Assembly: GCA_963383645.1 (NCBI GenBank)
Contig: OY726560.1
Location: 66,209,823 to 66,273,822, forward strand
Direction of reading: 5' to 3'
Length of the DNA stretch: 64,000 nt
From: Muscardinus avellanarius
Lineage: Eukaryota; Chordata; Mammalia; Rodentia; Gliridae
In this document: piece after piece, positions 6,526 to 61,222 of the stretch
Position numbering within the stretch: position 1 is the first letter of the stretch
Layout: each line of letters opens with the position of its first letter
Notes under the pieces: model-generated
What the model was told of the DNA's origin: nothing
The model's database searches: none
The model's input: the letters and a program-made list of their open reading frames with translations, nothing else
Translations under genes and position numbers: made by a program

Positions 6526-7454
6526 CTAGTTCTGGAGTGTGTTACCTATTTCTTCTTTGTAGTTAATCTCTTTGAGTATTTTCTCTAGTGCTGGTTTTGA
6601 AGACATAAATTCCTTCAGTTTCTGTTTGTCATGGAAGCTTCTTATTTCTCCATCTAATTTGATAGAAAGTTTTGCTGGGTAGGAAATTTTTGGCTGGAAG
6701 TTGTTTTCTTTCAGAGTTTGGAATATGTTACTCCAAGCCCTTCTGGCTCTCATGACTTGGTTTGGGAAGTCTGGAGTGATTCTAATTGGTTTGCCTCTGA
6801 ATGTCACTTGGCCCTTTGCTTTTGTTGCCTTTAAGATTCTCTGCTTGGCTTCCATATTGGTCATTTTGACAATTATGTGGTGTGGGGATCCTCTTCTCCG
6901 ATCCTGTTTAAAGGGAGTTCTATAAGTTTCCTGGACCTGTGTATCGACCTCTTGCTCTATGTCTGGAAAATGTTCTGCTATTGCTTCCTTGAAGAGATTG
7001 TTGATCCCTTTGGTTTCACTCTCTTTTCCCTCCTCTATTCCAATTATTCTTAGGTTAGCTCTCTTAAAATGGGCCCATATTTCTTCAATATCAGATTCCT
7101 GCTGTCGGATATTTTTTTCTAGATTAGAAACTATGCGTTCATTTTTGGAATTATCATCTTCTAAGAGCGAGATCTGTTCTCCATGTGGTCTAAACGGTTG
7201 TTTGTGCTTTGAATTGAGGCCTTTACTTCATTAATTGCATCCTTTATCTCTTTTTGGCTCTCTCTGAGTTCTTTTCGAAGCACCTCTACTATTTCTACAG
7301 TTATTTTCCTGATTTGATCTTCTAGAAATCTCTGATTTTCAGTTTTATCAGGTTCTGATGTTGTGGCGTTGTGGGCATTTATTGCTCCAGTATTATTCCT
7401 CTTTACCATGATTTTGGATGTTTGTGCCTTCTCTGGGTTCTTCCCTTGGGTCAC
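6526..7454 (-). pseudogene. L1 ORF1p-like gene in copy A, frameshifted
   Basis: L1 ORF1p is an RNA-binding chaperone forming trimers in the L1 ribonucleoprotein. The N-terminal frame (7454-7161) begins MTQGKNPEKAQ and carries the heptad-rich coiled-coil region. The C-terminal frame (6864-6526) carries the conserved C-terminal domain, with PIRITPDFPNQVMRARRAW and NFQPKISYPAKLS. A one-base loss near 7170 (GAGATCTG where copy B has GAGATTCTG) breaks the frame between them, so no full protein can be made. The Thr/Pro-rich spacer and RRM-like part (NLRIIGIEEGKE in other copies) lie in the broken interval. Confidence 0.9.
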
Positions 7455-11274: not shown

Positions 11275-14032
11275 TTTTTTTTTTTTTTTGGTGCACTGTA
11301 TTCATACATCATAGTAGGATACATACTTTTGTAGACATACATGCACACTTTTCCCAGTCAGCCCCCACCCAATCCCCACCCCATTCTCTCCCTATCCCTC
11401 CCTCCCATGCTTGGCTTAGTAGTTGACATCTAGTATTATAGCAATTTATCTAAAATTAAAAATGATAATCTCACATAACAGTTTCATTTGTCTGATACCA
11501 AGCTTTTGATGACTTAAAGATAACATTTCAATATTTCTTTTTGCTTTCTTTCTTACCAGAGAATATTTTTTTCTATTTTTTAGATGAAACTATCATATAT
11601 TTATATATTTATTTTTCAGAAAAAAATATATCCTAATATGGAATATGGACTCTAGGTACCCAAAACGATCTTGAAAAAGAACAAAGCTAGAAGATATATA
11701 TATATTCTGATTTCAAACCATATAAAGCTACAATAATTGAAACAGTGTAGTACTATTCTAAAGGCAGATATATAAACCATTGGAGTTAAATAAAAGCCTA
11801 GAGCTAAATTCTTCCCTATATTGTCAAGTTATTTTTGACAAGGTTTCCATGAACATTTGGTGGTGGAAATGATAATCTTTTAACTAAATATTGTTAAAAA
11901 ATAATAATTACATGGAAAAGAATAAAGTTGGACCCTTACCTAATCCCATATACAAATATTAACTCAAAATAGATAATAGACCTAAATATAAATCTTAAGA
12001 CTATAAACTTTTAGGAGAAAATCTGGGTCATAAAACCTCACAACATTGAAATTGGCAGTGATTTCTTGGTTATGATTTCAATGGCACAGGCAACAGAGGA
12101 GTATACAGACTCCCTAAAAAATAAAAATAAAAAATTGTATATCCAAAGACAATGTAAACAGAGTTAACAGTTACTAATAGAATGGGATAAAATATTTCCA
12201 ATTGCTATATCTGAAGGTATATTAATATTCCAACTAGAAATCCTAAAATTTAACAACAATAAAGGCAAACAATACAATTTAGAGATAGGTAAAAGACTAA
12301 CATAAATAATGAATCTCCACAGATAACCAATCTTAATTGTCTGTTGGATGGAAACTCTTGTTTCTCTGGTTCTGGTGTGTGTTACCTATTTCTTCTTTGT
12401 AGTTAATCTCTTTGAGTATTTTCTCTAGTGCTGGTTTTGAAGACATAAATTCCTTCAGTTTCTGTTTGTCATGGAAGCTTCTTATTTTTCCATCTAATTT
12501 GATAGAAAGTTTTGCTGGGTAGGAAATTTTTGGCTGGAAGTTGTTTTCTTTCAGAGTTTGGAATATGTTACTCCAAGCCCTTCTGGCTCTCATGACTTGG
12601 TTTGGGAAGTCTGGAGTGATTCTAATTGGTTTGCCTCTGAATGTCACTTGGCCCTTTGTTTTTGTTGCCTTTAAGATTCTCTGCTTGGATTCCACATTGG
12701 TCATTTTGACAATTATGTGACGTGGGGATCCTCTTCTCCGATCCTGTCTAAAGGGAGTTCTATAAGTTTCCTGGACCTTTGTATCAACCTCTTGCTCTAT
12801 GTTTGGAAAATTTTCTGCTATTACTTCTTTGAAGAGATTGTTGATCCCTTTGTTTTCACTTTCTTTTCCCTCCTCTATTCCAATTATTCTTAGGTTAGCT
12901 CTCTTAAAATGGGCCCATATTTCTTCAATATCAGATTCCTGTTGTCGGATATTTTTTTCTAGATTAGAAACTATGAGTTCATTTTTGGATTGCTCATCTT
13001 CTAAGAGCGAGATTCTGTTCTCCATGTGTTCTAATCAGTTGTTTGTGCTTTGAATTGAGGCCTTTACTTCATTAATTGCATCCTTTATCTCTTTTTGGCT
13101 CTCTCTGAGTTCTTTTCGAAGCACCTCTATTATTTCTACAGTTATTTTCCTGATTTGATCTTCTAGAAATCTCTGATTTTCTGTTTTATCGGGTTCTGAT
13201 GTTGTGGGGTTGTGGGCATTCATTGCTCCAGTATTATTCCTCTTTCCCATGATTTCCGATGTTTGTGCCTTCTCTGGGTTCTTCCCTTGGGTCACTATGA
13301 CTTCCCTTAAGGTGTTCTAGATCTCGAGTCAGTAGTATCTCGGACCCCACTACTCCTTTACTGGGTTTTATCACAGAGTCTCCGACCCAGACAGTCGATA
13401 GAGGCTGCTTTAGACTGTGGGGGGTGCCAGGTTGCAAGTTCTCCTATGGTGTGATATCTCTGCCACCCCCCCTCCCCCACTGGGTCAAGTCCCAGGGAGT
13501 ACAGTACTGGGATTTCTCCTCTGTGGCCCACAATTTGACTCACTGTTCTTGAGTACGCAGATGTAGCTGTACTGGCCTCGCTGAATTCGGTGCTGCTGCC
13601 GCCGGTGGCAATATGGCGCCGCTGCTACACCCTCGGCTATGGGGCTGGCGTTTTTCTTCTTGATTTTGATTTCTACTCTGAATCCCTGCAGCGTGTGCTG
13701 AGCTCAGCCACTGGGAGCTTTAGATGCTCTCTGCGCGGAGAAATCCCGCCTAGCTGTTCTGCAGTGGCTCACCTCGGCTTGCTGTAGCCGTCCCGTGAAT
13801 TCGCCGGTGCCGCCGGCAGTATGGCACTGCTGCCGCGTCTGCCGCGTCCTCGGGCGCAAGGCCGGTTATCTCCTCTGTGGCTCTGTTCTCAGTTCGCTTT
13901 CTCTCTGGAGCCTGGTGATTTTTTGTTTCACTTGTGATGGTGTTTTCTGGCTATGAAAGGCGCTGATTTTGTGGTAATGGAGATTTGTTGTTAGCGGGGC
14001 TCTTAAGCCCCGCTTTTCTCGGTTGCCATCTT
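11275..14032 (-). mobile_element. rearranged ORF1-only LINE, copy B (full length)
   Basis: About 2.76 kb, flanked by the perfect 15-bp duplication CCCTCGTCTATTTCT (11260-11274 and 14033-14047). Its structure is collinear with copy A: GC-rich 5' region (14032 to about 13300), ORF1 (13295-12333), inverted ORF2 piece (about 12290-11440), L1 3' UTR and short tail. It differs from copy A by scattered substitutions and a few small indels over its whole length. It is an independent insertion rather than a segmental duplicate, because the flanks and target duplications differ. Its ORF1 is the best preserved of the four. Confidence 0.94.
12333..13295 (-). pseudogene. L1 ORF1p-like gene in copy B, one in-frame stop
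   Basis: A single frame of 321 codons including its stop, about the usual ORF1p length (human L1 is 338 aa), interrupted by one TGA at codon 87 (13035-13037). Copy D has an arginine codon there. Residues 1-90 hold the coiled coil (LEDQIRKITVEIIEVLRKEL and following heptads). The RRM region includes NLRIIGIEEGKE at about residue 136. The C-terminal domain has RGSPRHIIVKM, GKPIRITPDFPNQVMRA and ISYPAKLSIKLDG. The family is known to coat L1 RNA and act as a chaperone during retrotransposition. Presumably non-functional now, although the frame was open until recently. Confidence 0.92.
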
Positions 14033-29947: not shown

Positions 29948-32365
29948 GGTTCTGGGAAGATGGCGACAGAGAAAACCGGGGCTTACGAGCCCCGCTAACA
30001 ACCAATCTCTATTACCACAAAATCAGCGCCTTTCATAGCCAGAAAACACCATCAGCAGAGAAACAAAAAAAATGTAATTTCAAGGGACAGAGAAAAAGAG
30101 GGCTGGAAAAATGAGACACCAGAAACCAGACCACAGTGCTGGAGCCGGAGCCACAGCATGAAGCGGCGGGCACCATTTTCCCTTGCAGCAAAAGGCTCCA
30201 GAGAGGAGGAGAACTCATAACGGAGCTCAGAACCAGAGAGGAGATACGTCGGCCTTACGGCCGAGGACGCAGCAGCAGCGCCTTACTGACGGCGGCAGCG
30301 ACGAGCTCACTGGATGGCACCAGACCAATGCTCTCAACAGCCCACCAGGCTCCAGAGAGGAGCGGCAGACAGCGAACCGAGGTGAGCAGCTGCGGATCAG
30401 CCGGGAGGAATTCGGCAGATTTCTCGGCGCAGGGAGCATCTAAAGCTCCCAGGGGCTGGGCTCGGCACACCTTGCAGGGACTCAGAGCGGAGCTCAAAAA
30501 CAGAAAAGAAATATGCCAGCCTCACGGCCAAGGGCGTGGCAGTGGCGCCATATTGCCACCTGCGGCAGCAGCAGCGAATTCACCAAGTCCACGACAGCTC
30601 CATCTGCGCACTCAACAACAGTGAGTCAAATTGTGGCCCCTGGAGGAGAAATCCCAGTACTGTACTCCTAGGGACTTGACCCAGTGGGGGAGTGGTGGTG
30701 GCAGAGATATCACACCATAGGAGAATGCCCAACCTGGCACCCCCCCATGGTCTAAAGCAGCCTCGATTGACTCCCAGGGTCTGAGACTCTGCGATACAAC
30801 CCAGTAAAGGAGTAGTGGGGACTGAGATACCACAGACTCGAGATCCAGAGCACCTTAAGTGAAGTTCAGGAAACTTATAGAACTCCCTTTAGACAGGATC
30901 GGTGAAGAGGATCCCCACGCCACATAATTGTCAAAATGACCAATGTGGAAGCCAAGCAGAGAATCTTAAAGGCAACAAAAACAAAGGGCCAAGTCACATT
31001 CAGAGGCAAACCAATTAGAATCACTCCAGACTTCCCAAACCAAGTCATGAGAGCCAGAAGGGCTTGGAGTAACATATTCCAAACTCTGAAAGAAAACAAC
31101 TTCCAGCCAAAAATTTCCTACCCAGCAAAACTTTCTATCAAATTAGATGGGGAAATAAGAAACTTCCATGACAAACAGAAACTGAAGGAATTTATGTCTT
31201 CAAAACCAGTGCTAGAGAAAATACTCAATGAGATTAACTACAAAGAAGAAATAGGTAACACACACCAGAACCAGAGAAACAAGATTTTCCATCCAACAGA
31301 CAACTAAGACTGGTTATCTGTGGAGATTCATTATTTATGTTAGTCTTTTACCTATCTCTAAATTGTATTGTTTGCTTTTATTGTTGCTAATTTTTAGGAT
31401 TTCTAGTTGTGAAAATATTAATATACCTTCAGATATAGCATTTGGAAATATTTTATCCCATTCTATCAGTAACTTTTTACTCTGTTTACATTGTCTTTGG
31501 ATATACAATATTTTTTTATTTTTTTAGGGAGTTTATTTACCCTTTTGTTGCCTGTGCCGTTGAAATCATATCCAAGAAATCACTGCCAATTTCAATGTTG
31601 TTATGTTTTATGACCCAGATTTTCTCCTAAAAGTTTATAGTCTTAAGATTTATATTTAGGTCTTTTATCTATTTTGAGTTAATATTTGTATATGGTGTTA
31701 GGTAAGGGTCCAATTTTATTCTTTTCCATGTAATTATTATTTTTCAACAATATTTAGTTTAAAAATTAGTATTTCCTCCACCAAATGTTCATGGAAGCCT
31801 TGTCAAAAATAACTTGACAATATATGGAAGAATTTATCTCTAGGCTTTTATTTAACTCCAATGGTTTATATATCTGCCTTTAGAACAGTACTACACTGTT
31901 TCAATTATTGTAGCTTTATATGGTTTGAAATCAGAAAATATACATCTTCTAGCTTTGTTCTTCTTCGAGATTGTTTTGGGTATCTAGAGTCCATATTCCA
32001 TATTAGGATAGATTTTTTCTGAAAAATAAATAAATAAATGTATGATAGTTTCACCTAAAAAAAAAAATATTCTCTGGTAAGAAAGAAAGCAAAAAGAAAT
32101 ATTGAAATGTTATCTTTAAGTCATCAAAAGCTTGGTATCAGACAAATGAATCTGTTATGTGAGATTATCATTTTTAATTTTGGATAAATTGTTTTAATAC
32201 TAGATGTCAACCACTAAGCCAAGCATGGGAAGGAGGGATGGGGAGGGAACGGGGTGGGGATCGGGTGGGGACTAACTGGGCGATGTGTGCATGTATGTCT
32301 ACAAAAGTATTTTCTTTATACCTTTATGATGTATGAATACAGTGCACCAATAAAATATAAATTTA
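29948..32365 (+). mobile_element. rearranged ORF1-only LINE, copy C (deleted ORF1)
   Basis: Same family as copies A and B but on the plus strand, flanked by the perfect 16-bp duplication AAAAAGTATCAATTAA (29932-29947, 32366-32381). Order: 5' region 29948 to about 30865 opening GGTTCTGGGAAGATGGCGAC; ORF1 remainder to 31307; inverted ORF2 piece about 31310-32200; L1 3' UTR with GTCAACCACTAAGCCAAGCA and a G-rich tract; terminal GTGCACCAATAAAA and tail. The ORF1 start and coiled coil are missing: AAGTGAAGTT joins directly to CAGGAAACTTATAGAACTCC near 30865, a loss of roughly 0.5 kb relative to A and B. Two blocks opening AGGCTCCAGAGAGGAG (about 30186 and 30348) indicate a duplicated monomer in the 5' region. 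Confidence 0.94.
30868..31307 (+). pseudogene. L1 ORF1p C-terminal half in copy C
   Basis: Only the end of the RRM-like part and the C-terminal domain remain. The open part 30936-31307 runs from MTNVEAKQRILKATKTKG through NQVMRARRAWSNIFQTLKEN to NYKEEIGNTHQNQRN and its natural stop. The preceding arginine-rich RTPFRQDR-type stretch carries a TGA (near 30904). Lacking the coiled coil, it could not trimerise. Confidence 0.9.
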
Positions 32366-45344: not shown

Positions 45345-45935
45345 TTTTCCTGGTAACAATACCATATCCAAAATTTAATTCAAAATGGATCATGGACCTA
45401 GATATAAAAGCTAAAATTATACATTTTTTAGAAAAAGTACATAGAAATAAATTTGGAATCAGGAATTAGGCAATAACTTGGTCAATACAATATCAGAAAT
45501 ATAAGCAATTACTCAGCCATAAAGAAAAACACAATTACATCATACAGGGAAATGGATGGAACTGGAGAACATTATGCTAAGTGAGCTTAGTCAGTCACAA
45601 AAAATAAGAAATTGGATGCTCTCCCTAATATGCAAAAAATAGGGAGAAATGGGTCATAAAAGAAACTCTAGATGAAGAAGGAGATTCTATAGATGAGCAA
45701 ACAAGGCGACCTGAGCGAATGGGAGGGAGAAGAGGGAAAGTCTCTAATGCACATGATGTAGTTTAACAAACATGTCAAAGTCAACCACTAAGCCAAGCAT
45801 GAGAAGGAGAGTGGGGGAGGGAATGGGGAAGGAATTGGGTTAGGGCTAATTGAGTGATGTGTGCATGTATGTCTCTACCATCTTTTATCCCATTAAGATG
45901 TATGACTACAATGCACCAATAAAAAATTTTAAAAA
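45345..45935 (+). mobile_element. young L1 3' end with internal deletion
   Basis: ORF2 C-terminal text (AAAATGGATCATGGACCTAG, CAATTACTCAGCCATAAAGA, AATGGATGGAACTGGAGAAC, TGCTCTCCCTAATATGCAAA) leads into a 3' UTR with GTCAACCACTAAGCCAAGCA, a G-rich tract and CAATGCACCAATAAAA. The UTR is the same as that on the ORF1-only LINEs (copy C 32204-32360). Bases between about 45500 and 45510 join distant ORF2 parts, an internal deletion. Confidence 0.88.
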
Positions 45936-46002
45936 AGAAAAAGAAAAAATTAATTTGACTCTATCAAAACTTAAAACATTTTTCTTTAAAGGATACCATC
46001 AC

Positions 46003-51560: not shown

Positions 51561-51719
51561 TCCTATCGGTTTTTGACAAAATGAATCCTCTTCACATGCA
51601 CTGAACTGAGGAAGGCCCTAAAGTGATGTGAAAATAACTCTCCTTATAAAATGCGATGGTCTCCAGGAGTATATTAGGCTTCCTTCTTGGATCTCATGGA
51701 TTCACAAAACAGTCTTAAA
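51561..51719. other. short spacer and left target duplication
   Basis: Ends in ACAAAACAGTCTTAAA (51704-51719), repeated perfectly at 54527-54542. Confidence 0.9.
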
Positions 51720-52035
51720 GGGAACCTGGGAAGATGGCGGCGGCTGCGGCTGCCAAAAAGGACATGCATTCCTCGGAGAAGCCCTGGACACCAGATTTTG
51801 GTTTAATATCAGATTGGGACAACTTGCGGAAACATTTCCAGCCACGACTTTCTACCTAGAATACAGGAGAGATAGTGGACAACAGCAGAATTAGAAGCAA
51901 GATGACAAGGAGGCGCATGCCACGCAAGAGAAGCAATTTTTGGAAGAACATCCCAGAAGGGACTAGAGAAAAGACCACTTCAGCTGCACATGCTGGGGAC
52001 TCTTAACAACATACCTTGTAAAAAAAAAAAAAAAT

Positions 52036-52297
52036 GATCCAGGCTTGTTGGAGGGAGCCGAGCAGCGTCGGTTGGGAAGCTGAGCCGTGCGTCCCTGGGG
52101 AGCTCAGCGCACCTGGCCGCCATGCTCCTCTATGCTGCACTGGGGTTCCTGCTGCACTCTGAACAGCAGATCCTGCTCTAAACAGTGAGGCTGTGGGCCT
52201 CCACCCTTGGAAGGAAGATAAAATTCATTGCTGCTAAGTGCTTGATCTCATAACCTCTTCAAAACACACATACTGTCTTCTCTTGTTAAAAAAAAAA
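52036..52297 (+). other. transcript-like poly(A)-ended module, first
   Basis: Starts GGCTTGTTGGAGGGAGCCGA, passes a Kozak-like GGCCGCCATGCTCCTCTATG, and ends ACACACATACTGTCTTCTCT followed by 16 A. It resembles a small 5' UTR-ORF-3' UTR transcript captured inside the element. The ORF is short and stopped (LLYAALGFLLHSEQQILL). A faint similarity to IER3IP1 (LLCVNAIAVLHEERFL region) is not strong enough to name it. Confidence 0.5.
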
Positions 52298-52302
52298 AAA
52301 AA

Positions 52303-53130
52303 ATGGAGAGGGGCCAAGATGGTGGCGGTGGCAGCCAGGATTCAGGATATGCAGACAAATCCTATCCAATTCACCTGGAACTTTTGGAAAAAATCCCCAC
52401 AAAGGGGGATTGCTTCTGCCGCACATGCTTAAGAATTCTGGACATCACATCATGTAAGGAAGGAGCTTAGCGGAGAACCAGGAGGAAGGCGGTGGCGGCA
52501 GCAGAGGTAGAGGCTAATATTTGGGAGAGGCAGAGATCTGATCCAACCCACCTTGATCTTCTGAAGAAATTGCCCCAAAGGTAGAATGCTATCACCACGC
52601 ATGCTCAGGAATTCTGGACAACATGCAGTGTGGGAAAAGTGTTTGGGAGAGAATTGAGATGGTAGAGGGAGCGGCAATGGCAGCGGCCAGTACTCAGGAG
52701 AGGCAGAGATCTGATTCAATTCACCTTGATCATTTGAAGAAATCGCCCCAAAGGTAGAATGCTGCCACCACACATGCTCAGGAATTTGGAACAACATGCT
52801 GTGTGAATAAGGTGCTCCGAAGAGAAACAAGATTGGTAGAGGCAGAGATTCAATCCAATCCACCTCATAACTTTAAAGAAATGTCCTCAAAGGTATACTG
52901 CTACTGCTGCACATGCTCAGGAATTCTGGAAAACAAACTGTGTGGGGAGGGTGTTCAGAAGAAAACTGAGATGGCAGTGGCAGCAGTGGCAGTGGTGGTG
53001 ACCAGAATTTGGAGGGGCAGACAGATCCAGTCCAGTCCACCTTGAACTTTTGAGGAAATCTCCCCAAAAGTAGATTGACTGCTCCTGCCTCACATGCACA
53101 GGAATTCTGGACAACATGTTAAGTGGTAAA
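52303..53130 (+). repeat. tandem 140-180 bp monomers of the SVA-like element
   Basis: Five diverged units, about 52303-52463, 52464-52638, 52639-52810, 52811-52950 and 52951-53130. Each has a purine-rich GGCGGTGGC/GGCAGTGGC start, a TCTGATCCAA..CACCTTGA middle, CCCCAAAGGTAGAATGC, and an end resembling CACATGCTCAGGAATTCTGG then ACAACATG. The first retains GCCAAGATGGTGGCGGTGGC, a YY1-like box. By analogy with mouse L1 monomers this could be a promoter array; that is inference. Confidence 0.88.
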
Positions 53131-53396
53131 AGGGTTTGAGGGGTATCAGAGGGAGCCCCACAGAGCCGGATGGGCCACCATGCTGCATGTTCTGGGAGTC
53201 ATCAGCCCTCATAGCCACCGCACTCCTCTGTGCAGAGCAGGAGGCCAGGGTGCATGTGGAGCAGCAGAGCCTGCTCTTCAAAATGAAGATGTGGACCTCT
53301 GCCTTTGGAGGGAAGACAAAATTCATTGCCACGAGATATTTGGGGTCCCAGTTTTTGCAAAAGACATGTACTGCTTTCTCATATTAAAAAAAAAAA
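53131..53396 (+). other. transcript-like poly(A)-ended module, second
   Basis: A diverged copy of the module at 52036-52297: GGGCCACCATGCTGCATGTT, CTCCTCTGTGCAGAGCAGGA, GAGCAGCAGAGCCTGCTCTT, TGGAGGGAAGACAAAATTCA, then a 12-A run. Only 65-75 percent alike by eye. Confidence 0.55.
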
Positions 53397-53408
53397 AAGT
53401 GGAAGAAT

Positions 53409-53529
53409 GCCAGGCATGGTGGTGTACGCTTATAATCCCTGCGCTTGGGAGGCAGAGACAGGAGGATCACGCAGGTTCGAGGCCAGCCTCACTGGCTTAA
53501 GAGACCCTGTTTCCAAATTTATGTATGTA

Positions 53530-53599
<70 letters not shown>

Positions 53600-53745
53600 G
53601 GGAGTGTAGCCTGGAGGTAGAAGGGTTGAACTCCAGTACCACCAAAAAGAAGAAGAAGAAGAAGAAGAAGAAGAAGAAGAAGAAGAAGAAGAAGAAGAGG
53701 AGGAGGAGGAGGGGAGGAGGAGGAGGAGGAGGAAGAAGAAGAAAG
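53409..53745 (+). mobile_element. dimeric SINE (type 2) with expanded linker and tail
   Basis: B1 half (GCCAGGCATGGTGGTGTACG, GGCCAGCCTCACTGGCTTAA), linker grown into (TG)n(TA)n (53526-53593), short ID half (TCTGGGAGTGTAGCCTGGAG), tail grown into (GAA)n(GAG)n (53643-53745). It interrupts the composite element between its second poly(A) and its minisatellite. Confidence 0.92.
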
Positions 53746-53780
53746 GGAACATCTGTTGACGACCTGCTCATAGTGACAGA

Positions 53781-54151
53781 GACCAGAGCCTGATGCACAG
53801 CAAGGCCAGTGCCAGGGCCTCAGAGGCCAGGATAGGAGCCTGCTGGGTGGCTAGGCTGGGACCAGGGCCAGTGAGGCTGGGATCAGAGCCTGCTGTGAGG
53901 CAAGGCCAGTGCTGGGGCTTCTGAGGCCAGGATCAGAGCCTGCCATGTGGCGAGGCCAGTGTTGGGGTCAGCAAGACCAGGATCGGTGCCTGCGCCATAC
54001 GATGAGGCTGTAGCTGGAGCCAGTGAGGCCAGGTTAAGATCCTGCCTTAAGGTGAGGCCAGTGCTGGAGCCAGTGAGGCTGGGATCAGAGTCTGCCGAGT
54101 GGCCAGGCTAGTGGTGGGGCCTTCAAGAGTGGGATTGGAACTTGAAATGTG
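53781..54151 (+). repeat. 50-bp minisatellite (VNTR) of the SVA-like element
   Basis: About seven units whose typical form starts GCAAGGCCAGTGCTGGGGC and ends GGATCAGAGCCTGCCATGTG, with exact 50-bp spacing in several units. GC-rich, unlike its surroundings. Confidence 0.93.
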
Positions 54152-54526
54152 GCATACACAGAGAAATATCACAGAAAATAAAAAAACAGATGCTTTCCCT
54201 AATATGCAAAAACTAGCAAGAAATGGGTAATCGAAGGAGATCTAGTTGAAGAAAGGCCCCTATGGAGGAGCAATTAAGGTGACCAATTAGAGGGGATGGG
54301 ATGGGGGAAGATGGAATCTCTTCAAAACACATAATGTGTTTTGATATCAAAGCTAATCACTAAATCAAGCATGGGATTGAGGAAGTGGGAGGGAATGGGA
54401 TGGGGACTGGATAAAGGCTAAATGGATGATGTGTGCTTGTATATCCTCACAAGTCTTATATTTCATTGTGATGTTTATCTACAATGCACCAATAAAAATA
54501 TATTAAATAAAAAACAAATAACAACA
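54152..54526 (+). mobile_element. L1-type 3' UTR of the SVA-like element
   Basis: CAGAGAAATATCACAGAAAA, TGCTTTCCCTAATATGCAAA, AATGGGTAATCGAAGGAGAT, AATCACTAAATCAAGCATGG, G-rich tract, CAATGCACCAATAAAAATAT. It is collinear with the L1 3' end at 45610-45935, which places the element in that L1's 3' UTR class. Confidence 0.9.
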
Positions 54527-54542
54527 ACAAAACAGTCTTAAA

Positions 54543-55200: not shown

Positions 55201-55259
55201 CCTGGACCCTTGTGTCAAAACCAACTAGCACGTAAAGCAAATTGCTTGTCCATTTGCTC

Positions 55260-55310
<51 letters not shown>

Positions 55311-55365
55311 CTGGACCCTTGTGTCAAAACCCACTAGCATGTAAAGCAAATTGCTTATCCATTTG

Positions 55366-55406
<41 letters not shown>

Positions 55407-55409
55407 TGT
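55201..55409. repeat. tandem duplication of about 100 bp, each with a (GT)n block
   Basis: CTGGACCCTTGTGTCAAAAC ... GCAAATTGCTTGTCCATTTG then (GT)n (55265-55309). This is followed at once by CTGGACCCTTGTGTCAAAAC ... GCAAATTGCTTATCCATTTG then (GT)n (55366-55410). The units differ at only a few bases, so the duplication is recent. Confidence 0.93.
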
Positions 55410-55410
55410 G

Positions 55411-55585
55411 TTTACGGAGGATTGAACCCAAGGACATTCTACCTCTGAGCTAAACTTCTAGCCCTATTTTATTATTTTGAAGCAGGGTTTTGCCAAGTTT
55501 CTGAGGCTGTCCTTGAACCTGCAATTCTTCTGTCTGAGCTTCCCAAATACTAGGATTACAGGCATGTGCCACCATACATGGCAAA
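55411..55585 (-). mobile_element. dimeric SINE (type 1)
   Basis: Antisense: GGAGGATTGAACCCAAGGAC, ATTCTACCTCTGAGCTAAAC, GAGCTTCCCAAATACTAGGA, TGTGCCACCATACATGGC. The GT block may be part of its tail side. Confidence 0.92.
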
Positions 55586-56730: not shown

Positions 56731-56741
56731 TTCTCTTTCAC

Positions 56742-58179
56742 CAGAGCCCAGGGCCGCAGCAGGGCCGCAGGGCCCTGGGCCCTGGGCGGGGGTTGCACAG
56801 GGCACGCCGGACCCCCAGAAGAACTGGGGCCTGGGCCACAGTGCTATCGAGTGCCTGATCCCACAACCTCCTCAAACCACACATACTGTCTTATTTAAAA
56901 AAAAAAAGGGGGGGGGGGAAGCAAAAGAAAAAAGAAAAGAAAAATATCGGAGAGGTGTCAAGAGGGCCACGGTGGCTGCCAGGATACTGGAGATGCAGAC
57001 AAAATTTATCCAACTGAACTAGAACTTTTGGAAAAATTCCCTGTGAAGTAGGACTGCTTCTTCTCTACATCCTTAAGAATCCTGGACATGACCTGTAAGG
57101 AGAGAGTTTAGCGGAGACCTAGAAAGAAGGCGGTGTTGGAACAAGTAACCGCAATGGTGGTGGAGACTTGTATTCAGGAGAGGCAGAAATCTGATCCTAC
57201 CAATCTTATCTTCTGGAGAAATTACCCCAAGAGTCGAATGCTACCATTGCGCATGCTTAGGAACACTGGACAACATGCAGAGTGGAAAAAGAGCTTGGGA
57301 AAGATTTGAAATGGTGGAGGCAGTGGCAATGGCAGCAGCCAGTACTCAGGGGAAGCAGAGATCTGATCCATTACACCTGGAACTTTTGAAGAAATAACCC
57401 CAGAAGCAGAATGCTACCACCATGAACCCTCAGGAACATGGGACAACCTGCTGGGTGAAGAGGGTGCTCAGATCGGAGCCTGCCGAGGGGTTAGGCCAGT
57501 GCCAGGGTCAGCAAGGCCAGGATCGGAGCCTGCCATGAGGCAAGGCCAGTGCTGGGGCCTCCAAGGCAAGGATAGGAGCCTGCCAAGGGGTTAGGACGGT
57601 GCCAGGGTCAGTGAGGCTGGGATTGGAGCCTGCCTTGAGGCAAGGCCAGTGCTGGGGCCTCTGAGGATGGGATCAGAGCCAGCCGAGGCATTAGGCTGGT
57701 GTGGGGGCCAGTGAGGCCAGAATCAGGGCCTCTCATGAGGCAAGGCTGGTGCTGGAGCCAGCAAAGTTGGGATCGGAGTCCTCCGGGTGGCCAGGCCACT
57801 ACTGGGGCCGTCAAGAGTGGGATCGGAACCTGCAATGCGGCATGCACAGAGAAATATCACAGAAAATAAAAACCAGAAGCTTCCCCTAATTAGCAAAGAC
57901 TAGGAGGAAAGGAGTAACAGGAGGAGGTCGAGTTATAGAAAGGGCCCTATAGCAAAGCAATTAAGGTGACCAATCAGAGGGTATGGGATGGGGGAAGATG
58001 GAACCTCTTTAAAACTCAGGAGGTATGTAAACAAATGTATCAAAGATAATCACCATCAAGCATGGGATCTAGGGAGGGGGAGGGAATGGGATGGGAGTGG
58101 ATGAGGGCTAATTGAATGATGTGTGCTTGTATATCCTCTCAAGTCTTGTATTCCAATGTGATGTATGATTACAATGTAC

Positions 58180-58233
<54 letters not shown>
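56742..58233 (+). mobile_element. SVA-like composite retroposon, short copy
   Basis: 1.5 kb, flanked by TTCTCTTTCAC (56731-56741) and TTCTCTTCCAC (58234-58244). Order: GC-rich start (56742-56800), end of the transcript-like module with AACCACACATACTGTCTTAT and poly(A) (about 56800-56911), three monomers (about 56945-57470), 50-bp minisatellite (57471-57839), L1-type 3' UTR (57840-58180), tail expanded to (TA)n (58182-58233). The monomer-to-minisatellite and minisatellite-to-UTR joins are the same kind as in the long copy. It lacks the last two monomers and the second transcript-like module, so it represents a shorter or earlier form. Confidence 0.88.
57471..57839 (+). repeat. 50-bp minisatellite of the short SVA-like copy
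   Basis: About 7.4 units (for example GCAAGGCCAGTGCTGGGGCC ... GGATCAGAGCCAGCCGAGGC). Unit types alternate between GTTAGGCCAGTGCCAGGGTC-like and GCAAGGCCAGTGCTGGGGCC-like starts, suggesting a higher-order 100-bp repeat. Confidence 0.92.
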
Positions 58234-58236
<3 letters not shown>

Positions 58237-58244
58237 TCTTCCAC

Positions 58245-59028: not shown

Positions 59029-61222
59029 ATACTTTTTTTATTGGTACACTGTATTCATACATTATAATGGGATAAAAAAATACTTTTGTAGACATACATG
59101 CACACATAGCCCAGTTAGCCCCTACCCAATCCCGACCCCGTTCCCTCCCCATTTCTCCTTCCCATGCTTGGCTTAGTGGTTGACATCTAGTTTTATAGCA
59201 ATTTATCCAAAATTAACAATGATAATCTCACATAACAGTTTCATTTGTCTGATACCAAGCTTTTGATGACTTAAAGATAACATTTCAATATTTCTTTTTG
59301 CTTTCTTTCTTACCAGAGAATATTTTTTTCTTTTTAGGTGAAATTATCATACATTTATTTATTTATTTTTCTGAACAAAATCTATCCTAATATGGAATAT
59401 GGACTCTAGATAACCAAAACGATCTTGAAAAAGAAAAAAACTAGAAGATGTATATTTTCTGATTTCAAACCATATAAAGCTACAATAATTGAAACAGTGT
59501 AGTACTGTTCTAAAGGCAGATATATAAACCATTGGAGTTAAATAAAAGCCTAGAGATAAATTCTTCCATATATTGTCAAGTTATTTTTGACAAGGTTTCC
59601 ACGAACATTTGGTGGTGGAAATAGTAATCTTTTAACTAAATATTGTTGAAAAATAATAATTACATGAAAAAGAATAAAAATGGACCCTTACCTAACACCA
59701 TATACAAATATTAACTCAAAATAGATAAAAGACCTAAATATAAATCTTAAGACTATAAACTTTTAGAAGAAAATCTGGGTCATAAAACATAACAACATTG
59801 AAATTGGCAGTGATTTCTTGGATATGATTTCAATGGCACAGGCCACAAAAGGGTAAACAAACTCCCTAAAAATTAAAAAAAAAATTGTATATCCAAAGAC
59901 AATGTAAACAGAGTAAAAAGTTACTGATAGAATGAGATAAAATATTTCCAAATGCTATATCTGAAGGTATATTAATATTTTCACAACTAGAAATCCTAAA
60001 AATTAGCAACAATAAAAGCAAACAATACAATTTAGAGATAGGTAAAAGACTAACATAAATAATGAATCTCCACAGATAACCAATCTTAGTTGTCTGTTGG
60101 ATGGAAAATCTTGTTTCTCTGGTTCTGGTGTGTGTTACCTATTTCTTCTTTGTAGTTAATCTCTTTGAGTATTTTCTCTTGTGCTGGTTTTGAAGACATA
60201 AATTCCTTCAGTTTCTGTTTGTCGTGGAAGCTTCTTATTTCTCCATCTAATTTGATAAAAAGTTTTGCTGGGTAGGAAATTTTTGGCTGGAAGTTGTTTT
60301 CTTTCAGAGTTTGGAATATGTTACTTCAAGCCCTTCTGGCTCTCATGACTTGGTTTGGGAAGTCTGGAGTGATTCTAATTGGTTTGCCTCTGAATGTCCC
60401 TTGGCCCTTTGTTTTTGTTGCCTTTAAGATTCTCTGCTTGGCTTCCACATTGGTCATTTTGACAATTATGTGGCGTGGGGATCCTCTTCTCCGATCCTGT
60501 CTAAAGGGAGTTCTTTAAGTTTCCTGGACCTGTGTAACGACCTCTTGCTCTATGTTTGGAAAATTTTCTGCTATTACTTCCTTGAAGAGATTATTGATCC
60601 CTTTGGTTTCACCTTCTTTTCCCTCCTCTATTCCAATTATTCTTAGGTTAGCTCTCTTAAAATGGGCCCATATTTCTTCAATGTCAGATTCCTGCTGTCG
60701 GATTTTTTTTTCTAAATTAGAAACTATGCGTTCATTTTTGGAGTGCTCATCTTCTAAGAGCAAGATTCTATTCTCCATGTGGTCTAATCGGTTGTTTGTA
60801 CTTTGAATTGAGGCCTTTACTTCATTAATTGCATCCTTTATCTCTTTTTGGCTCTCTCTGAATTCTTTTTGAAACACCTCTATTATTTCTACAGTTATTT
60901 TCCTGATTTGATCTTCTAGAAATCTCTGAATTTCTGTTTTATCAGGTTCTGATGTTGTGGGGTTGTGGTCATTCATTTCTCCATTGTTATTACTCTTTCC
61001 CATGATTTAGGAAGTTTGTGCCTTCTCTGGGTTCTTCCCTTGGGTCACTATGACTTCACTTAAGGTGTTCTGGATCTCGAGTCAGTAGTATCTCAGACCC
61101 CACTACTCCTTTACTGGGTGGTATCGCAGAGTCTCAGACCCAGGGAGTCAATAGAGGCTGCTTTAGACTATGGGGGGGGGGGTGCCAGGTTGGGTGTTCT
61201 CCTATGGTGTGATATCTCTCCA
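59029..61222 (-). mobile_element. rearranged ORF1-only LINE, copy D (5' truncated)
   Basis: Same order as copies A-C in minus sense: it starts within the 5' region at the ACACCATAGGAGAACA block (about 61215), then ORF1 (61003 to about 60110), inverted ORF2 piece (about 60060-59230), L1 3' UTR, tail at 59029-59040. The first about 550 bp of the 5' region are missing. A weak ACTTTA..TTTTTTT similarity at the two ends (59014-59028 and 61225-61240) may be the target duplication, but homopolymer slippage makes it uncertain. It adjoins the tail of another minus-strand L1. Confidence 0.88.
60110..61003 (-). pseudogene. L1 ORF1p-like gene in copy D, two in-frame stops
   Basis: The frame 61003-60515 (MGKSNNNGEMNDHNPT... 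to QVQET) holds the coiled coil and RRM-like part. A TAA replaces the Tyr codon after QET, and a TGA replaces the Trp codon of RARRAW near 60326. The C-terminal domain otherwise continues in frame to near 60110. The upstream MTQGKNPEKAQ start is frame-disturbed near 61005. Confidence 0.88.

Follow-up and report, generated by a model that had tools for sequence, protein, structure and literature searches.

Introduction

Composite retroposons built around a GC-rich variable number tandem repeat (VNTR) are best known from SVA and LAVA, whose plan comprises CT-hexamers, an Alu-like domain, a VNTR of 36–50 bp units, a SINE-R or pieces of L1 and Alu, and a poly(A) tail (PMC7353768, PMC4432496). The passages of both papers cited here describe VNTR composite retrotransposons as restricted to hominoid primates. 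SVA copy numbers are given as 1,800 (orangutan) to 2,800 (human) in the corresponding part of PMC7353768 and as ~6,000 for human in that of PMC13174262, where SVA, and no rodent element, is the example of a composite. Here, we analyze a stretch of 64,000 nucleotides from Muscardinus avellanarius (the window; C4:66209823–66273822, within a 2.50-Gb genome of 104 contigs), which contains a 2,807-bp unit at 51720–54526. The analysis leaves us highly confident that the unit is a full-length member of a large composite retroposon family, non-coding and dispersed through the genome, whose copies were probably made in trans by L1 proteins.

Structure of the Unit

The unit is flanked on both sides by a perfect 16-bp duplication, as the sequence-only reading of this stretch had claimed, and its parts are the following:

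51704–51719, no strand: 5′ target site duplication ACAAAACAGTCTTAAA, a perfect 16-bp pair with 54527–54542.
51720–52034, + strand: module M1, with a YY1-type box AAGATGGCGGC at 51731–51741 and an A-tract, expanded here, at 52020–52034; the 3′ half is monomer-related, and the M1-to-M2 join occurs 1,009 times.
52035–52303, + strand: module M2, with an A-tract at its end, 52288–52303 (join alignment; matched in 40 of 40 scored candidates).
52304–52468, + strand: first monomer, opening with GGAGAGGGGCCAAGATGG, a YY1-type box (join alignment).
52469–53142, + strand: further tandem monomers (Tandem Repeats Finder, TRF; locus alignments).
53143–53398, + strand: module "mid", a second version of M2, with an A-tract at its end, 53386–53398 (score 124, shuffled sequences reaching at most 30; 706 array-to-mid joins).
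53409–53745, + strand: short interspersed element (SINE) with an internal TA run and an AAG/GAG tail (join common to the loci aligned).
53746–53802, + strand: conserved linker GGGAACATCTGT...AGTGACAGAGACC (20 loci aligned).
53803–54147, + strand: GC-rich 50-bp VNTR (286–986 bp in 18 copies; VNTR-to-L1 join 4,460 times).
54160–54512, + strand: L1 3′ end, with the last codons of open reading frame 2 (ORF2) and a 3′ untranslated region (UTR) with AATAAA (similarity to the window L1).
54513–54526, + strand: A-rich tail (from the sequence).
54527–54542, no strand: 3′ target site duplication ACAAAACAGTCTTAAA, a perfect match to 51704–51719.

The YY1-box start, the tandem monomers, the 50-bp GC-rich minisatellite and the L1 3′ UTR described by the same reading are all recovered. 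TRF reports a monomer period of 139 at 52699–52966 (1.9 copies, 76% matches) and a 50-bp unit at 53803–54121 (6.3 copies, 69% matches), the GC content of the VNTR being 64%. The L1 part ends ORF2 as MLSLICKN-stop, similar to the MLSLICKK of an L1 elsewhere in the window, and it is 78% identical over 349 bp to the 3′ end of that L1 at 45595–45936, where an ORF2 match ends just upstream. The description of the modules as poly(A)-ended holds for the second and third, which end in A-tracts of ~5 to 20 in the aligned loci, but only weakly for the first when the family is considered: of the 25 loci shown at the M1-to-M2 join, nearly all read TGTAAGAAAAATGATCC or a near variant, and the 15-A tract of the window is one of the few expansions among them. 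The observation is otherwise confirmed. Not recognized in that reading were mid as a second version of M2 and the SINE as part of the family. The first part of this SINE is presumably B1-like, and we take the SINE types of the genome to be those of a rodent. No ORF1 or ORF2 match is listed inside 51720–54526, where only the last ORF2 codons are left, and the longest ATG frame within the unit has 128 codons.

Shared Joins and Family Size

Whole-genome pattern searches (up to 3 mismatches, with the same pattern read backwards as control) find the VNTR-to-L1 join 4,460 times (2,172 + 2,288 by strand), the M1-to-M2 join 1,009 times (502 + 507) and the array-to-mid join 706 times (348 + 358), with 0 matches for each reversed control; diverged copies, and variants like the expanded A-tract of the window copy, escape these counts. 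The 3′ joins outnumber the 5′ joins, which fits 5′ truncation together with a form that lacks M1. When the whole unit, M1, M2 and the 3′ end are used as queries, a match is obtained in all 40 candidates scored in each case, out of 14,629, 2,431, 2,581 and 4,333 first-look candidates, respectively.

Alignments were made for six joins, with 20 to 31 loci per join, of which up to 25 were printed. Apart from A-tract length, nearly all are identical between loci to the base, with a few rows badly aligned or interrupted (L024 and L049 at the M2 join, L044 at the first join). The composite joins occur far beyond chance. The sequence-only reading had proposed that a family would reveal itself in many copies with the same internal joins rather than in a pair of loci, and the genome-wide matches, set against the empty controls, agree with this.

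Insertion Signature

Eight complete copies could be read at both ends, and all of them have their own target duplication of 12–18 bp with 0 to 2 mismatches. The match is weak in L023, in which the middle is absent, and L034 could not be judged, its 5′ end lying outside the locus. For a further sample, short end windows were fetched for 20 of the other 32 copies from the whole-unit search, and 12 of these 20 show a clear, correctly placed duplication; mis-paired ends, used as a control, reach the same score threshold of 10 in 4 of 60 trials, with a score of 16 in one case. The copies carry duplications of their own, for which the sequence-only reading had proposed to check, in 8 of 8 complete and 12 of 20 further cases. 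Copies with the middle missing or with a start inside the VNTR were judged in 10 cases, 7 of which have clear duplications beside the truncation point; those without are L023, L032 and L039, the duplication of L030 is A-rich, and L041 could not be judged.

In the 20 clear complete-copy cases, which were selected for having a duplication, the first five bases of the duplication (+1 to +5) are A in 15, 17, 16, 14 and 16 copies, and T occupies positions −3 to −1 in 11, 14 and 10. Insertions are thus found at TT|AAAA-like sites, and the L1 cut site is given as TT/AAAA in the part of PMC13174262 cited here. At the 5′ end of the element, all 20 copies have AAGATGG, with no more than one mismatch, in the first 45 bases (13 exact; 11% of shuffled ends), and in 18 of them it lies at an offset of 4–13. 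The duplications, the TT|AAAA-like sites and the 5′-truncated copies constitute the signature of L1-type retrotransposition, from which we infer dependence on L1.

A Second Form

The window contains a second composite copy of different construction, which we call form B, the unit described above being form A:

56731–58244, + strand: form B copy, with the element at 56742–58233 and duplications at 56731–56741 and 58234–58244 (monomer-to-VNTR join 1,492 times).

The order of this copy is a GC-rich start, the tail of M2, the first monomer, two monomers, the VNTR and the L1 3′ end, and its target duplication is 11 bp with one mismatch. Form B lacks the third module (mid) and the SINE, and the monomer runs straight into the VNTR. 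This join is found 1,492 times genome-wide (739 + 753 by strand; reversed control 0), and the M2 tail and first monomer lie upstream of it in 11 of the 12 loci fetched, being absent in L111. Duplications are seen in four of the seven copies judged (L113, 17 bp; L115, 16 bp; L116, 16 bp; and the window copy) and not in L110, L112 and L117; six others were not judged. The 3′ end consensus sequences of the two forms differ by 9.4% at non-CpG sites, L118 being nearer form A. The three form B loci printed (L107, L109 and L113) open with another GC-rich tandem array, which by eye is unlike the first VNTR and is followed by the M2 tail. An origin of form B through splicing of form A was considered and dropped, there being no GT after the GGTGCTC break in the window's form A and a different 5′ array in form B.

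Between the two composite copies of the window, a 109-bp tandem duplication with TG runs is present at 55201–55411 (1.9 copies, 94% match).

Relations among the Modules

Alignment of M2 with mid gives a score of 124 (shuffle maximum 30), and the two are versions of one module. The 3′ half of M1 scores 57 with the first monomer (shuffle 36) and 38 with the last (shuffle 37), while whole M1 scores 29 with the first monomer (shuffle maximum 24), a weak match, and 22 with the window's second monomer (shuffle 31). When M1-M2 is aligned with last monomer-mid, the alignment crosses the join with a score of 214 (shuffle 40). On the basis of the kinship of M2 and mid, that of the M1 3′ half and the first monomer, and the alignment across the join, the 5′ half is best interpreted as a single unit present in two versions in tandem, with the order YY1-headed monomer, M2 and A-tract.

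The array is nearly constant in length, the distance from the first monomer to mid being 841–908 bp in 17 of 26 copies and 495–1,138 bp in the rest, four of which have an inserted SINE. The VNTR, in turn, ranges from 286 to 986 bp among the 18 copies with both borders found.

In the consensus of M2 (52035–52287) and of mid (53143–53385), one frame is open throughout, with 83 and 81 codons, respectively. Searches bearing on a host-gene origin of the two modules gave no match in Pfam for either frame and none in PDB for the M2 frame; these frames are either a chance feature of GC-rich sequence or a captured coding piece. The 45-codon frame of M1 has only chance-level matches, to Tricorn_C1 (Pfam, E 0.18) and to a chain of the cytochrome bc1-complex entry 8ab6 (E 0.21). 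Rfam gives six matches, all under the gathering score, among them mir-297 at 53521–53591 (49.6 bits, gathering 90), which lies inside the TG/TA run of the SINE and is most likely a simple repeat.

Relation to L1 and Activity

The window L1 at 45595–45936 is an older L1, closer to the 3′ end of the composite than the intact L1s are, the latter matching it over only ~50 bp (76%). The last 165–180 bp of the composite have 73–75% identity to elements that bear ORF1 and lack ORF2. Such ORF1-bearing stretches, which resemble HAL1 (half-L1), were observed in the window at 6529–7289 (−), 12363–13130 (−), 30861–31277 (+) and 60116–60883 (−), and also in L049, L054 and L056, and are 57–65% identical to young L1 ORF1. 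In the last three loci, ORF1 is followed by an L1-like 3′ end within ~1.5 kb, with no long ORF2 frame listed between.

Of 150 ORF1 rows scored, about 120 have an open frame of 329 codons and belong to intact-looking L1s (G000; L050–L057, L101–L103); L1 has recently been active in the genome. As for the composite itself, the 40 matches to the 3′ end consensus that were scored, out of 4,041 first-look candidates, reach 98% identity in the best case and 96–97% in the others, and thus no very young copy is seen. The mean non-CpG divergence of form A goes from 7.8% in M1 (n = 27) down to 4.0% in the 3′ end (n = 29), and that of the form B 3′ end is 7.1% (n = 12), but the form A copies are best hits to the window, biased to low divergence, and the values of the two forms are not comparable as ages. 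At L050:1321–2195 (−), composite VNTR and 3′ end reach 3′ end position 289 and are followed by the middle of the young L1 ORF1 frame, a junction that is due either to a 5′-truncated L1 insertion or to a chimera at the RNA level.

Proposed Mechanism and Alternative Explanations

In the mechanism that we propose, RNA polymerase II would start ~ten bases upstream of the YY1-type box, and the RNA would span the monomers, the poly(A)-ended modules, the SINE and the VNTR, up to the 3′ end derived from L1, where the AATAAA signal lies. The L1 ORF2p would then nick a TT/AAAA site, prime on the tail and copy the RNA into the genome. The element itself may have been assembled from a unit of YY1-headed monomer, M2 and A-tract that fused with another version of the unit in tandem, the product being joined to the SINE, the GC-rich VNTR and the L1 3′ end. 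The existence of form B indicates that the assembly changed over time.

Several observations weigh against this picture. Six of the 20 further copies have no duplication, L062 is borderline, and the match in L075 was discounted, as it consists of SINE-like sequence far from the tail. The selection of the 20 target-motif sites for having a duplication may favor A-rich starts. The monomer side of the tandem-unit alignment, taken alone, is at shuffle level (38 against 37). Finally, the intact L1s do not point to a partner L1, as they lack the 5′ modules of the composite and match its 3′ end only over the short stretch noted above.

We have considered that the family is already catalogued in Dfam or Repbase, whole or in pieces, and merely unnamed as an SVA-like composite. 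The family is abundant, and a species repeat library would thus hold pieces of it. However, no rodent VNTR composite appears in the literature searched, which covers few of the subscription journals, and such composites are called hominoid-specific in the passages cited (PMC7353768, PMC4432496). We regard prior cataloguing as a possibility of some substance, although the lesser one, and the family is likely to be novel.

A different origin would be deletion within an L1 with a monomeric 5′ UTR, which lost its ORFs while modules, SINE and VNTR gathered inside, leaving an L1 shell rather than a fusion of retroposons. The YY1-type 5′ start and the tandem YY1-headed monomers do resemble L1 promoters, the YY1 motif of the mouse L1 monomer being GTCGCCATCTTG in the part of PMC11602158 cited, and the 3′ end is that of an L1 with the end of ORF2. 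However, the two L1s whose start was read (L102 and L103) have a 5′ UTR that begins TTTTTCAAAATGGCGACTG, with a YY1-type box after a T-run and no tandem array by eye, and their 5′ UTRs score no higher than shuffled sequence against the composite. For the L1s compared, an origin of the 5′ modules in the intact L1 5′ UTR is rejected, ~510 bp of one 5′ UTR being at shuffle level. Likewise, no monomer match is found beside the four ORF1-bearing stretches of the window, a sample that hardly includes the 5′ UTRs of older L1s. We consider the L1 shell unlikely.

A true relationship by descent to SVA or LAVA would account for the common plan of SINE piece, GC-rich VNTR of ~50-bp units and, as in LAVA, L1 piece at the 3′ end, but is given practically no credence: no pair of CT-hexamers, (TCTCCC)n with up to 2 mismatches, occurs on the sense strand of the unit (4 and 3 weak matches lie on the opposite strand, none at the 5′ end), the parts are a SINE assumed to be B1-like, a local L1 3′ end and monomers, and, according to the passage cited (PMC7353768), not even Old World monkeys have SVA. 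That repeats inserted separately piled up by chance, or that the stretch spread through segmental duplication, is rejected in spite of the SINEs and L1 pieces inside or beside some copies, because joins identical to the base are found at unrelated sites with different flanks and different target duplications, and in their thousands (4,460 for VNTR-to-L1), evenly divided between the strands; the sequence-only reading had itself named such a pile-up as fatal to its proposal.

Possible Independent Evolution and Its Meaning

The preferred reading is a composite retroposon family likely copied in trans by L1, and the suggestion that it is an independently evolved SVA-like family is in line with the presumably B1-like SINE, the L1 3′ end, the YY1-headed monomers and the lack of a CT-hexamer pair on the sense strand. 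On balance, we lean toward the broader view that rodents evolved a VNTR composite class of their own, independently of ape SVA, in which tandem YY1-headed, poly(A)-ended units were combined with a SINE, a VNTR and an L1 3′ end, and which, with copy numbers at or above those of SVA, diversified into two or more forms that differ at the 5′ end, one having two GC-rich arrays.

If this is true, GC-rich VNTRs are a recurrent route to a good L1 substrate, and SVA-like composites could arise outside apes. Given the statements of hominoid specificity, studies of why such elements need a VNTR have so far covered a single lineage, for which an independent family in rodents would provide a natural replicate: the common traits (~50-bp GC-rich VNTR, SINE piece and poly(A) tail) would point to a preference of the L1 machinery, while the differing ones (YY1 monomers for CT-hexamers, L1 3′ end for SINE-R) would be dispensable. 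With forms A and B in the same genome, the stepwise assembly would also become readable.

Comparison with Known Systems

The composite has no ORF1 or ORF2 match and is thus not an autonomous LINE-1. It is a non-autonomous relative of L1, as is HAL1, and its last 165–180 bp are related to the ORF1-bearing elements that resemble HAL1; HAL1, however, carries ORF1 followed by the L1 3′ UTR, while the composite has no ORF1 and nothing of ORF2 beyond the last codons. Mouse Tf-type L1 elements have tandem 5′ monomers with a YY1-type motif in the description cited (PMC11602158), but in the composite, which lacks the ORFs, poly(A)-ended modules, a SINE and a VNTR come after the monomers.

In kind, the unit has what characterizes a VNTR composite: it is non-coding, with fixed joins, a poly(A) tail and target duplications, and its central GC-rich VNTR has a 50-bp unit, within the ~36–50 bp of the known architecture. 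As in LAVA, and in PVA and FVA, an L1 piece stands in the 3′ domain, where it may correspond to the Alu/L1 domain of LAVA, and those related families swap ends, as do forms A and B; LAVA differs in having the CT-repeat and Alu-like 5′ region of SVA, where the composite has a 5′ half of monomer and M2 in tandem (PMC4432496, in the part cited). Compared to SVA, the composite lacks sense-strand CT-hexamers and has YY1-headed monomers at the 5′ end, its L1 3′ end takes the place of SINE-R, and its only SINE module, in sense orientation, sits mid-element between mid and the VNTR. The Alu-like domain of the hominoid clade is antisense and adjoins the 5′ end. Both are non-coding composites with a GC-rich array of ~50-bp units, a SINE piece, an A-rich tail, target duplications and evolving structural forms. 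Although not a member of their clade as far as tested, the composite works like SVA and LAVA and shares their architecture and insertion signature.

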